Positions 5,650 through 32,275 of a stretch of DNA of 51,382 bases are shown one piece after another. Numbering within the stretch: position 1 is the first letter of the stretch; every line of letters begins with the position of its first letter. Source of the stretch: Aquabacterium sp. Its GTDB lineage: Bacteria > Pseudomonadota > Gammaproteobacteria > Burkholderiales > Burkholderiaceae_C. Both the position numbers and the translations under genes were made by a program. Location: the NCBI GenBank assembly GCA_023150345.1, contig JAKLLB010000020.1, positions 1-51,382 on the forward strand, in the 5' to 3' direction. The notes beneath the pieces are model-generated. The model did not search any database. It had not been told where the DNA came from and saw only the letters and a program-made list of their open reading frames with translations.

Positions 5650-5664
5650 GGTAACTTCACTACA
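5650..5664. promoter_or_regulatory. Candidate RpiR/HexR-type operator (8/10 match)
   Basis: GGTAA-CTTCA-CTACA matches TGTAG-N5-CTACA at 8 of 10 half-site positions, with a perfect right half. It is 144 bp upstream of the Glk-RpiR start and in the control region shared with the second glucokinase, so autoregulation is plausible. The 316-bp gap 5507-5822 holds this site, the next one, and no gene I can support. Confidence 0.5.
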
Positions 5665-5774
5665 AATAGCCATGCTCGCGGATTCACCGATACCGCCGAC
5701 TGATCCATGGTTACTGCTGAGAACGAACGCCCGCCAGGGCGCGATCCGGTGAGATCAACCTATTGCGGTAGAAG

Positions 5775-5789
5775 TGTAGTTTTGCTACC
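5775..5789. promoter_or_regulatory. Candidate RpiR/HexR-type operator (9/10 match)
   Basis: TGTAG-TTTTG-CTACC, a near-perfect copy of the TGTAG-N5-CTACA palindrome, ends 33 bp before the GTG start of the second glucokinase. That is a good position for repression of its promoter. Confidence 0.65.
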
Positions 5790-5822
5790 GTCGCGGCCAT
5801 CTCCAGTTGGTACGGGTGCGCA

Positions 5823-6827
5823 GTGACACGTCCACAGAATCCTGATCGTGGCCAGCCTTGGCTGGTGGCCGACATTGGCGGCACGAACGCCCGCTTCGGG
5901 TGGGTCGATGCCCGCGAGGGCGGCGCGATCACCCGCGTGTCGACGCTGCCGACGGCCGCGCATGCCGACATCGCTGCGGCGGTGCGTGCATACCTCGGGC
6001 AGGTTGCGGCCGAGCTGGGCGATCGTTGGCAGCCGCCCCAACGGGCTGCCTTCGCCGTGGCCACGGCGGTGGCGGGCGATTGGGTCGAGTTCACGAACAG
6101 CCCATGGCGGTTCTCGGCGCGCCAGTTGCAGATCGACCTGGGGCTGCGGTCGCTGCAGGTGCTCAACGACTTCGAGGCACTGGCCCTGGCACTTCCAAGG
6201 CTGTCGTCCGGTCAGTTTCGACCGCATGGGCGCGCGCCCGACGCCGCCGGGACCCTGGCGGTGGTGGGTCCGGGCACCGGCCTTGGTGTCGCCGGCGTCA
6301 CCCGCGCGCACGACGGATCTTGGGTTGCGCTGGCGGGCGAGGGCGGCCACTGCACACTCTCTGCATTCAATGACTTCGAGAGCGCGTTGCTGCAACACGT
6401 GCGCGGCGAGTTCGACCACGTTTCGGCGGAGCGGCTGCTGTCGGGCATAGGCTTGCCGGTGCTTCACCGCGCGGTGGCGCACGTGACGGGACGTGTGGTC
6501 CAACCAATGACGGCGGGGCAGATCGTCGAGCTGGGGCTGGCGAGAACCGACGACGTGTGCGACCGGACCCTCGATGCGTTCTGCGCGCTGCTGGGCGGGT
6601 TCTGCGGCAATGTCGTATTGACGCTCGGTGCGCGCGGCGGCTTGTACATCGGGGGTGGCATTGTCCCGCGGCTGGGCGATCGCTTCTTCGCTTCCTCGTT
6701 CCGCGATCGCTTCGAAGCCAAAGGCCGGTTCAGCAGCTATCTGCAGGCGGTGCCCAGCGCGGTCATTGTCGACACGCTGGTGGCGCTGGACGGCGCGGTC
6801 GCCGACATCGAGCGAATCGCAAAGTAG
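5823..6827 (+). CDS. glk: Glucokinase (stand-alone)
   Basis: A 334-residue Glk-family glucokinase with GTG start. The phosphate-binding DIGGTNARFGW begins at residue 17. FTNSPWRFS, VLNDFEALALALP, GPGTGLGVAGV, GEGGHCTLSAF and LYIGGGIVPRLGDRFF are the family blocks that bind glucose and ATP. It is a cytosolic enzyme that would phosphorylate the glucose released by MalQ and the dextrin hydrolases. It is a paralogue of the kinase half of the divergent Glk-RpiR fusion but has no regulatory domain. No strong Shine-Dalgarno sequence precedes the GTG. The candidate operator at 5775-5789 lies just upstream and another overlaps the stop codon. Confidence 0.93.
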   Translation: MTRPQNPDRGQPWLVADIGGTNARFGWVDAREGGAITRVSTLPTAAHADIAAAVRAYLGQVAAELGDRWQPPQRAAFAVATAVAGDWVEFTNSPWRFSARQLQIDLGLRSLQVLNDFEALALALPRLSSGQFRPHGRAPDAAGTLAVVGPGTGLGVAGVTRAHDGSWVALAGEGGHCTLSAFNDFESALLQHVRGEFDHVSAERLLSGIGLPVLHRAVAHVTGRVVQPMTAGQIVELGLARTDDVCDRTLDAFCALLGGFCGNVVLTLGARGGLYIGGGIVPRLGDRFFASSFRDRFEAKGRFSSYLQAVPSAVIVDTLVALDGAVADIERIAK

Positions 6828-30360: not shown

Positions 30361-30594
30361 GCCTGTTGTCTCCTGGGGTCGTGCGGCAACGCTGCCCAGC
30401 CCGGCACGTTGCGTGCGACGCATCATGCCGGTACCGGGAGGCAGTTCGTGGGGCATTTGCCACGTTCTGCTGACACGATTCGTAACACTGTGTATACAAG
30501 TCCCGTCGCTGTGCCTGGCGGTCGGTCGATTCACGTTCGCCGGTCAACAGCACTCTGGGGCAGCCGGGGCGGGCGCCCGCCCCTTGTGCTCATC
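30361..30594. other. Intergenic region before the binding-protein gene
   Basis: This 234-bp gap contains the AGGAGA Shine-Dalgarno of the binding-protein gene at its left edge and an AT-richer patch near 30475-30500 (with GTATAC) that may be its promoter. No TGTAG-N5-CTACA site and no gene is seen. Confidence 0.4.
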
Positions 30595-32229
30595 TCACGG
30601 CTGTGCCACCACGCGCAGCACCCGCAGCGATTGCGGCGCCAGCGCCAGCAGCAGCGAGCCCTGGGCATCGGCCTGTGATGGCGCCCCGCCCGCGGGATGT
30701 TCATTGACCAGCTTCGCGTCGGCGCCCAGGCTGTCGATGCGGATGGCGGCGGGATCCTTGCCGTAGTTCAGGACCACCAGCGTGCGCTCGTTCTCATGGC
30801 GCCGCTGGAATGCGTAGACCATGCCTTGAACCTGTGGCGACTCGTAGCTGCCGCGGGCGATCGATGGCAGGCGGTTGCGCAGCGCCAGCATTGCGCGGTA
30901 GTGCGCCAGCAGCGAACGCGGATCCGCTTGTTGATCCGCCACGTTGTGGGTCCGTGCATTGGGCGAGACGGGCCGAAACGGCGTGCCGGTCGTGAAGCCC
31001 GCACGTGCCGCATCTGCGGTCCAGCTCATCGGTGTGCGCAGTTGGCGATCGCCCGCCAGCGTGGGCACGCCAGCCATGCCGATCTCCTCGCCGTAATAGA
31101 TGAACGGCGTGCCGGGCAGCAACAGATAGGTGGACGCAGCCAGGCGATAGGCGGCGGTGTCGCCCTCGAGCTGGTCCCAGACGCGCGCGCCTGCGAACAG
31201 GTCGTGGTTGGCCAGCATGTTGGCCATGGTCGGCGGTGCCGCCTTGTGGTACGCGGCCACTGCAGCGACGGCTGCTTCGCGGCCACGTGCGGCATCGAGC
31301 AGGTGACGCTCCAGACCGAACGCGAAGGCGCTGCCGCAGCCTTCTGCAGTGGCCCAGCGTTGCGGACTGGCGGTGGCCTCGCACACCAACGTGCGGCGTG
31401 CGTAGCCTCCGACCAACTGCTGGATGCCGCGCATCAGCGTGTAGCTCTCGGGTTGGTCGTTCCAGGCATCGGGGCCGTTCTCCACCAGGTGCGGCACGGC
31501 GTCGAAGCGAAAGCCGTCCAGGCCGCGATTGAGCCAGTAGCGCAGGTTGTCGTGATGCCAGGCCACCACGGCGGGACTGCGCAGGTTGAAGTCCGGCATG
31601 CCTGCACCGAAGGTGGCGAAGTAGGCCTGCGCAGCCGCGCCGCTCACCCAGGGGTCACGGCCCCAGATCTGCCAGCCCTGCGGTGCCGGTTGCTGCCAGA
31701 TGAACCAGTCGCGCCGCGGACCGCTTGGGGATGCAGCGGACTGCATGAAGGCAGGGTGGGTGGCGCCCGCGTGGTTGATGACGTAGTCCATCACCACGCC
31801 GATGCCGCGCCGGTGCGCTTCGCGCAGCAGGTCGTCCAGGTCGGCCAGCGTGCCGTAGGCGGGCTCGATGCTGCGAAAGTCGGTCACGGCATAACCATGA
31901 TCGTGATCGGCACTGGCCGTGATGGGCATCAGCCAGATGCCCTTGATGCCCAGAGCCTGCAGGTAGTCCAGGCCTTCGATGACTCCACGCAGGTCGCCGA
32001 TGCCGTCGCCGTCGCTGTCGCGCCAGGCGCGCACGAAGACTTGCATGAATGCGCCGTGCTCCCAGCCCGGCGCCAAGGCGCTCCCAGGGTCGGCCACGGG
32101 CACAGGCCGGCGGTCGAAGTCCGGCGTGCGGGCACCGGTGACGAGGCCCAGTTGGGAACAGGCGGCCAGGACACCTGCAAGGCCGATGGCAGCGACGCGT
32201 CCGGCGCAGCCGGGCAAGGTGGTGGGCAT
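30595..32229 (-). CDS. Alpha-amylase family lipoprotein (GH13)
   Basis: A 544-residue GH13 enzyme. The N-terminus ends in GLAGVLAAC, a lipobox, so it is probably a membrane-anchored lipoprotein facing the periplasm or the cell surface. Motifs: FVRAWRDSDGDGIGDLRGVI (Ca-binding type loop), IWLMPI, HGYAVTDF, VVMDYVINHAG, GFRFDAVPHL (nucleophile Asp), LVCEATASP (Glu), MLANHDLFAG (third Asp) and FIYYGEEIGMAG. The overall pattern is that of an alpha-amylase/oligo-alpha-glucosidase. The ATG at 32229 is preferred to an upstream start because it places the lipobox correctly. Divergent from pullulanase, with a candidate operator at 32261-32275. Confidence 0.91.
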   Translation of the reverse strand: MPTTLPGCAGRVAAIGLAGVLAACSQLGLVTGARTPDFDRRPVPVADPGSALAPGWEHGAFMQVFVRAWRDSDGDGIGDLRGVIEGLDYLQALGIKGIWLMPITASADHDHGYAVTDFRSIEPAYGTLADLDDLLREAHRRGIGVVMDYVINHAGATHPAFMQSAASPSGPRRDWFIWQQPAPQGWQIWGRDPWVSGAAAQAYFATFGAGMPDFNLRSPAVVAWHHDNLRYWLNRGLDGFRFDAVPHLVENGPDAWNDQPESYTLMRGIQQLVGGYARRTLVCEATASPQRWATAEGCGSAFAFGLERHLLDAARGREAAVAAVAAYHKAAPPTMANMLANHDLFAGARVWDQLEGDTAAYRLAASTYLLLPGTPFIYYGEEIGMAGVPTLAGDRQLRTPMSWTADAARAGFTTGTPFRPVSPNARTHNVADQQADPRSLLAHYRAMLALRNRLPSIARGSYESPQVQGMVYAFQRRHENERTLVVLNYGKDPAAIRIDSLGADAKLVNEHPAGGAPSQADAQGSLLLALAPQSLRVLRVVAQP

Positions 32230-32260
32230 GGTGGTGATGTGGATCTTTGGACGCGGCGAA

Positions 32261-32275
32261 TGTAGTGCAATTACT
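32261..32275. promoter_or_regulatory. Candidate RpiR/HexR-type operator (8/10 match), amylase/pullulanase
   Basis: TGTAG-TGCAA-TTACT has a perfect left half of the TGTAG-N5-CTACA palindrome and three of five in the right. It lies 31 bp upstream of the lipoprotein-amylase start, inside the 128-bp divergent gap. Confidence 0.5.

Follow-up and report, generated by a model that had tools for sequence, protein, structure and literature searches.

Which protein controls the starch and maltodextrin genes on a 51,382-nt stretch of Aquabacterium sp. DNA (assembly GCA_023150345.1, contig JAKLLB010000020.1, positions 1 to 51,382; this whole stretch is referred to here as the window)? A preliminary description, made from the letters of the DNA alone, had noted a repeated palindrome in the control regions of the locus and proposed that it is recognized by the RpiR half of a Glk-RpiR fusion, a glucokinase (Glk) domain joined to an RpiR-type helix-turn-helix (HTH) and SIS regulator. 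Comparative evidence supports this proposal as a prediction of binding. In the explanation favored here, to which a probability of about 0.84 is assigned, the palindrome TGTAGY-NNN-RCTACA would be the operator of the fusion protein encoded at 3629..5506 on the minus strand, and the fusion dimer would bind at four control regions. Its predicted targets are its own gene, the neighboring glucokinase gene glk2, an outer-membrane receptor gene, the malKEFG operon, the glgP-glgB-glgX-malQ run and an amylase/pullulanase pair. The protein would most likely act as a HexR-type repressor, released by a sugar-phosphate arising from phosphorylation of maltodextrin-derived glucose, and would represent a HexR-type regulator re-assigned from zwf and edd to maltodextrin genes; a second HexR-like protein, encoded beside zwf, would serve zwf and edd via a distinct operator in which base 5 of each half-site is A and not G. 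The interpretation is supported because the sites have the same placement in relatives, occur far from the regulator gene and co-occur with it, because no LacI-family match was found, and because a different motif is found beside the other HTH_6 gene.

A pattern search of the window recovered all seven palindromes of the preliminary description, in place and in number of matches to TGTAG-N5-CTACA. Upstream of glk-rpiR lies GGTAACTTCACTACA (5650..5664, two mismatches), with counterparts in the glk-rpiR/glk2 regions of relatives, and upstream of glk2 lies TGTAGTTTTGCTACC (5775..5789, one mismatch), which is near-identical in many relatives and reads there as GGTAGCAAAACTACA. Two further copies, each with two mismatches, are AGTAGTTTGACTACG (6823..6837), located between glk2 and the receptor gene and with counterparts in relatives, and TCTAGTTTTGGTACA (6976..6990), upstream of the receptor gene, whose counterpart in genomes G013 and G027 is TCTAGTTTTAGTACA (G and L numbers denote genomes and loci of the comparison). 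The region between malK and glgP contains a malK-proximal site supported by pattern match and conservation, TGTAGCGAATATACA (18045..18059, one mismatch), which reads towards malK as TGTATATTCGCTACA with a -10-like TATATT, and, upstream of glgP, the perfect site TGTAGGAGAACTACA (18157..18171), identical in G019. Finally, TGTAGTGCAATTACT (32261..32275, two mismatches) lies between the amylase and pullulanase genes and has counterparts in relatives, and a degenerate extra site, TGTAGTTTTGTTTCT (32328..32342), differs by two mismatches from TGTARYNNNRYTACA.

These palindromes are confirmed as real, and their number in the control regions greatly exceeds chance. Seven sites at ≤2 mismatches fall within the four control regions (995 bp in total), as compared to a mean of 0.216 and a maximum of 3 in 2000 dinucleotide shuffles. 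The window as a whole contains 25 matches at this threshold (shuffle mean 5.67, highest of 100 shuffles 13); the 18 beyond the seven all lie outside the control regions, the one at 49475 with a single mismatch. In the 4.58-Mb assembly the perfect TGTAGN5CTACA occurs only once, at 18157. Genome-wide pattern searches with mismatches, using the reversed pattern as a control, found TGTAGN5CTACA at ≤1 mismatch in 76 places versus 187 for the control, and TGTARTNNNAYTACA at ≤2 mismatches in 64 places versus 208, with no over-representation of either. Four of the 76 places fall in the window where 0.85 are expected (p = 0.011), as do eight of the 64 where 0.72 are expected (p = 6e-7), the latter comprising five in control regions and three in genes. 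Because the loose forms are not rare genome-wide, the case rests on placement and conservation, not on count. The loose one-mismatch motif was also considered as a genome-wide regulon finder and rejected, its 76 places being below the reversed control. For a site at C11:6942, no link to sugar genes was seen in the gene starts, and no family search was made.

When the control regions are compared in related species, the palindrome appears at matching places. At least one site (≤1 mismatch to TGTAGYNNNRCTACA) is present in 24/24 recognizable glk-rpiR/glk2 regions, with 44 sites in total versus 0.05 in shuffles; 23 of these regions were picked without regard to sites and L231 was fetched for its sites, so the recount of half-site bases described below covers 23. 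Loci in which the neighboring glk is closer to the kinase half of the fusion (e.g., L018, L021, L023, L028, L032 and L036) were not recognized as a glk-rpiR/glk2 pair. A site is found in six of eight glk2/receptor regions of relatives and in two of three amylase/pulA regions, two of these three having been fetched for a site. The unselected test is that of malK. A search of 22 genomes yielded 10 malK orthologs (~69% identity or more), found in 10/13 genomes with the fusion and 0/9 without it, three of the nine being <90% complete. Sites lie ≤400 bp upstream of 10/10 orthologs versus 0/20 other malK-like genes (the further malK-like matches with loci returned, one with only 92 bp upstream), and nine of the ten orthologs have one perfect site and a one-mismatch copy 110 to 121 bp apart. 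Seventeen malK/glgP regions were also compared as a selected set, 11 fetched for a known site and further ones taken from earlier site matches. In an alignment of this region from eight genomes the two sites are the clearest common blocks: one contains the -10-like TATATT (TATGTT in G018) towards malK, and the other lies ~19 nt upstream of a CATACT/GATACT block towards glgP that is present in seven of the eight genomes. From this arrangement we infer operators positioned on promoters, and hence that the fusion would act by repression.

The sites are not confined to the surroundings of the regulator gene. The exact site persists at malK/glgP where this pair and the fusion gene are 1.9 Mb apart (G216) or on different contigs (G105, G300 and G222). 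Amylase/pulA, LamB and receptor genes at a distance from the fusion also have it in fusion-bearing genomes. Twenty stretches from fusion genomes and G202, all chosen for an exact site and thus informative on site location, not frequency, place it at malK/glgP in 11 cases, at LamB genes in three (in one case with a glk gene opposite), at amylase/pulA in two, and once each at an amylase-family gene, a receptor gene, the glk2/fusion pair and an ExbB-containing run. Among 299 genomes of the family, the fusion was detected in 67 and the exact motif in 67, with both in 47, the motif only in 20, the fusion only in 20 and neither in 212. The motif thus occurs in 47/67 fusion genomes versus 20/232 others (odds ratio 24.9, Fisher p = 3e-23, uncorrected for the relatedness of the genomes). 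Of 13 motif-only genomes inspected, two have the site at malK/glgP (G202, in which the fusion frame is split in two, and G213), three have it inside genes and eight have it between genes that are unrelated or uncalled. In a smaller genome set, the exact site lies at amylase/pulA in G011 and G017, both without a detected fusion, and G039, G043 and G058 show no such neighbor. The ExbB-containing run is that of G027 (L224, position 3058), where the exact site lies far from the fusion and upstream of the run, which suggests that energy supply to the receptor may be co-regulated there; in the Aquabacterium genome, the region upstream of a tonB-like gene (L102, 2000-2700) has no site at ≤2 mismatches.

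Two HTH_6 proteins were found in the Aquabacterium genome, the fusion and a protein encoded directly downstream of zwf, and it is the latter that provides the most serious alternative: the sites could be bound by this stand-alone HexR-like protein, or shared, in which case a general HexR regulon would include the maltodextrin genes and the fusion would be mainly an enzyme. Both proteins are of the same family and the sites share the same half-site core; the sites at 5650 and 32261 each include one half-site of the other type; all 13 family genomes with the fusion in the 22-genome set also list a stand-alone match; and G017 has a stand-alone gene and the amylase/pulA site with no fusion found. 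This alternative is nevertheless considered quite unlikely, as the two sets of promoters differ in one symmetric base. At zwf promoters 12 sites were found in 12/15 regions (three lacking a site at the threshold) and at edd promoters 17 sites in 17/17 regions, and base 5 of the half-site is A in 58/58 half-sites of these promoters, whereas it is G in 107/114 half-sites of the glk-rpiR/glk2 and malK promoters. The Aquabacterium zwf and edd sites, for instance, are AGTAACTCAGTTACA and TGTAATCATATTACC. These counts come from a base-5-neutral pattern (of the 16 zwf loci supplied, 15 contained zwf; the G042 edd row is shown apart) and are preferred to an earlier half-site table that drew its sites from a partly G-leaning filter and omitted the G042 edd row. 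The proteins differ as well: in the recognition helix, the residue following VS is Gln in 33/33 fusions and Lys in 16 and Glu in one of 17 stand-alone proteins. Furthermore, the motif follows the fusion, though stand-alone genes are also present in fusion-less genomes (e.g., G005, G009 and G010). Because the helix residue correlates with base 5 of the half-site, this Gln probably reads the G at base 5; a fusion from another family (G499), which has Asp at the helix position and lies near two perfect A-type sites, fits such a pairing.

In other bacteria, control of maltose genes falls to MalT or LacI-type proteins, and a regulator of this kind could bind the sites instead. For Shewanella, PMC3223726 lists a separate MalR as the regulator of maltodextrin use. 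The absence of a LacI-type gene, which the preliminary description had asserted for the window, holds genome-wide: zero LacI-family matches were found in the 94% complete Aquabacterium genome, and the same search was positive in 9/14 control genomes. A further candidate within the window is a STAND-like ATPase (41432-44200), with Pfam matches, mostly below cut-off, to Trans_reg_C (a weak N-terminal winged-helix match), AAA, NB-ARC and NACHT. No LuxR/GerE-type HTH is among its matches, MalT having been sought among the window genes and not genome-wide, and the presence of a site in all 24 glk-rpiR/glk2 regions points to the fusion and away from any such protein, making control by a LacI/MalR-type, MalT-type or STAND-like regulator very improbable. 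Chance matching in promoter DNA richer in A+T might be argued from the 76 loose matches being fewer than those of the reversed control; as a source of the palindromes it is a practically negligible prospect given the shuffles of these same control regions, the conservation between malK and glgP in eight aligned genomes and the 10/10 versus 0/20 result upstream of malK.

Several observations weigh against assigning the sites to the fusion. Twenty of the 67 fusion genomes, the Aquabacterium genome included, are without an exact TGTAGYNNNRCTACA, and G011, G017 and G213 lack a detected fusion yet have the exact site at amylase/pulA or malK/glgP. These three cases constitute the main result against a strict pairing of regulator and site; their assemblies are 70, 91 and 83% complete, respectively, and it is possible that the fusion gene was missed in them. 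The Aquabacterium sites at 5650 and 32261 each have one A-type half-site, and Gln-type HexR genes of other families come with a mixture of A and G half-sites. No promoter was detected by a strict sigma-70 scan of 5500-7120 and 17980-18280, and the repressor-like placement is read from one alignment. The loose motif is frequent inside genes in the genome-wide search; thus, to the question of whether the motif is equally common at unrelated genes, the answer is yes for loose matches within genes and no for the conserved sites of control regions. With regard to the proposed re-assignment, the maltodextrin fusions stand apart from the rest, with full local support, in a tree of RpiR domains that is unrooted, and G425 encodes a Tyr-type fusion (see below) near zwf and edd with no such site in the 14 kb read, a misfit with a simple one-step re-assignment.

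The fusion protein is predicted to be 625 amino acids in length from its ATG start, the open reading frame (ORF) continuing upstream to 5647, with Pfam matches to Glucokinase, HTH_6 and SIS. It therefore has the RpiR-type HTH followed by SIS that characterizes HexR, and its recognition-helix sequence RFCR, kept in 33/33 fusions, aligns with the solved chain 8ju9; the arginines of this sequence presumably correspond to the HexR operator contacts R54 and R57. (In these protein counts, the L022 and L026 fusions derive from over-long ORFs, and only L099 was counted of L016 and L099, which are apparently the same contig.) The NCBIfam HexR model PRK11302 has a cut-off of 296 bits, which neither the fusion (252.5 bits) nor the zwf-linked protein (248.9 bits) reaches. 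We take the effector serines of HexR to be residues 140 and 184, the former from work in P. putida. The position aligned with Ser140 is Tyr in 32/33 fusions and Cys in one, which is zwf-linked, and Ser in 17/17 stand-alone proteins; the Ser at the position aligned with Ser184 is kept in the fusion of the window. Sites of its own type at zwf and edd, expected for HexR, are not found, as these genes carry A-type sites. Since it falls short of HexR in curated cut-off, effector residue and target set, the protein should not be filed as HexR; the most fitting description is a putative maltodextrin-gene regulator of HexR type, fused to a glucokinase.

The ligand to which the fusion responds could differ from 2-keto-3-deoxy-6-phosphogluconate (KDPG), which is given as the effector of both RccR and HexR in the relevant part of PMC5489143. 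The changed SIS residue means that neither KDPG nor glucose-6-phosphate, the guess of the preliminary description, is singled out. In the kinase half, NDFTA, EGGH and ER-SGPG are kept in 33/33 fusions, and the GGT-N-AR loop reads GGTYAR in 30/33; glk2-type proteins have Asn in this loop in 23/29 cases, five being without the motif and one having His. The kinase half could thus be a sensor. A broader scheme is offered as speculation, with the odds against it: both ligand pockets would have changed together on re-assignment (the Ser140 position to Tyr, GGTNAR to GGTYAR) while the neighboring separate glucokinase remained mostly GGTNAR, the fused kinase possibly having turned into a glucose or nucleotide sensor like the ROK repressors with SIS kept for dimerization, and the two HexR-type paralogs of one cell would be kept separate by one symmetric operator base pair, A or G at base 5, recognized through a single helix residue, Lys or Gln, respectively.

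A likely origin of the fusion is suggested by loci outside the family, where glk and hexR adjoin as separate genes (L249, L250, L252 and L254) or are fused (L245) in zwf loci, mostly with pgi and edd; 6-phosphogluconolactonase was checked for L249 only. All five loci have the helix Gln together with Ser at the HexR Ser140 position, and in the sites that precede zwf and edd there, half-sites of the G and A types are mixed. The glk-hexR arrangement in zwf loci is likely the older state, the Gln and the TGTAGT-like operator seem to belong to this old glk-hexR line, and, given these loci, the maltodextrin role looks derived. In G369, from another family, two Glk-RpiR copies lie ~15 kb apart (L246 and L247). 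One of them follows an amylase-family gene, and an operator-like site lies upstream; the link to alpha-glucans may accordingly have originated, or persisted, on more than one occasion. In G437 (L251), a divergent Glk-RpiR whose SIS residues are altered is found beside a receptor gene and the site TGTAACAATACTACA; the gene caller, trained on the window, performs poorly in the low-GC loci L248, L251 and L253.

The genes assigned to the locus in the preliminary description are borne out by Pfam and NCBIfam matches. The host is a high-GC member of the Burkholderiales whose nearest named relative found is Burkholderiaceae MAG_31, with 95% identity over the fusion. On the plus strand, glk2 (5823..6827, Pfam Glucokinase) encodes a stand-alone glucokinase and is followed by the gene of a TonB-dependent receptor (7105..9867, TIGR01782). 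Adjoining the latter, here and in many relatives, is a gene for a tryptophan-halogenase-family flavoprotein (9971..11494, plus strand, PF04820). The minus-strand genes are those of malK, an ATP-binding cassette (ABC) ATPase (16844..18004; PRK11000, 506 bits, cut-off 568), a malE-like solute-binding protein (15657..16847, PF01547), the ABC permeases malF (14062..15660; MalF P2 domain PF14785, PRK10999 above cut-off) and malG (13166..14056; PF00528, named by position), and a cyclomaltodextrinase-like enzyme of the alpha-amylase family (11535..13169; PF00128, NF041090 below cut-off). In the other direction, on the plus strand, lie glgP, encoding glycogen/maltodextrin phosphorylase (18266..20746, TIGR02093), glgB, encoding branching enzyme (20668..22968, NF003811), whose real start is probably further in, a gene for a glgX-like debranching enzyme (23001..25181; PF02922 and PF00128, named by position and family), malQ, encoding 4-alpha-glucanotransferase (25255..26772, PF02446), and a gene for a cyclomaltodextrinase-type enzyme (26829..28676; PF09087, PF00128 and PF10438). 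The final pair consists of an alpha-amylase family gene on the minus strand (30595..32229, PF00128) and a pullulanase gene on the plus strand (32358..35258; PF11852, PF17967 and PF02922). Genes for a molybdopterin oxidoreductase, an Fe-S protein and an NrfD-like membrane subunit adjoin a PaaX-type regulator gene at 45353-50769.

The proposed mechanism would identify what regulates starch and maltodextrin use across a broad group of Burkholderiales in which, at least for the Aquabacterium genome, the locus is not explained by a LacI-type protein, and would offer a function for a fusion labeled merely bifunctional by the database model. Open-licence PubMed Central yielded no publication describing a Glk-HexR or Glk-RpiR fusion or a Burkholderiales maltodextrin regulon under RpiR control, and a RegPrecise regulog for these taxa may already list such sites. 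The system can be viewed as a natural experiment in regulatory evolution: one genome holds two HexR-type paralogs, a single symmetric base pair distinguishes their presumed operators, and their targets, helix residue and effector-pocket residue have diverged in parallel. It makes testable how such paralogs avoid cross-talk and what becomes of a sensor when its regulon is re-assigned.

Among known systems, the ROK repressors (such as Mlc/NagC) likewise combine DNA binding with a sugar-kinase fold in a single protein; they have another HTH, no SIS and another domain order, and the likeness is in idea only. The nearest database description is PRK14101/NF010701, the "bifunctional transcriptional regulator/glucokinase", presumably at home in Burkholderia. 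It has the same domain order as the fusion, an N-terminal glucokinase followed by HTH_6-SIS, and aligns with it over nearly the full model at 818 bits, below the cut-off of 920, which is exceeded in 0/299 family genomes and 1/200 genomes of the order. Unlike the fusion, the PRK14101 member in L245 (1189 bits) is accompanied by zwf and glucose ABC genes, and its residue at the HexR Ser140 position is Ser. RccR of Pseudomonas, also of the RpiR family, binds the aceE sites TGTAGTTTTACTACT/TGTAGTAAAACTACA by surface plasmon resonance, the 15-bp site having the form TGTAGT-N3-ACTACA and KDPG lowering the affinity for it; in the parts of that paper devoted to RccR, the protein controls pyruvate, glyoxylate and gluconeogenesis genes, unlike the fusion, and a kinase domain is not mentioned (PMC5489143). 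HexR is described in two papers as governing zwf, edd, eda and glk in Proteobacteria (PMC5343134) and glycolysis and Entner-Doudoroff genes (PMC5507952). The fusion resembles HexR in its HTH and SIS domains, its RFCR helix, its predicted palindromic operator and its link to glucose-phosphate metabolism. It differs from HexR in being joined to a glucokinase, in having its predicted sites at maltodextrin genes and not at zwf and edd, in a half-site whose base 5 is G where the zwf and edd sites of the same genomes have A, and in the Tyr at what we take to be the Ser140 position.

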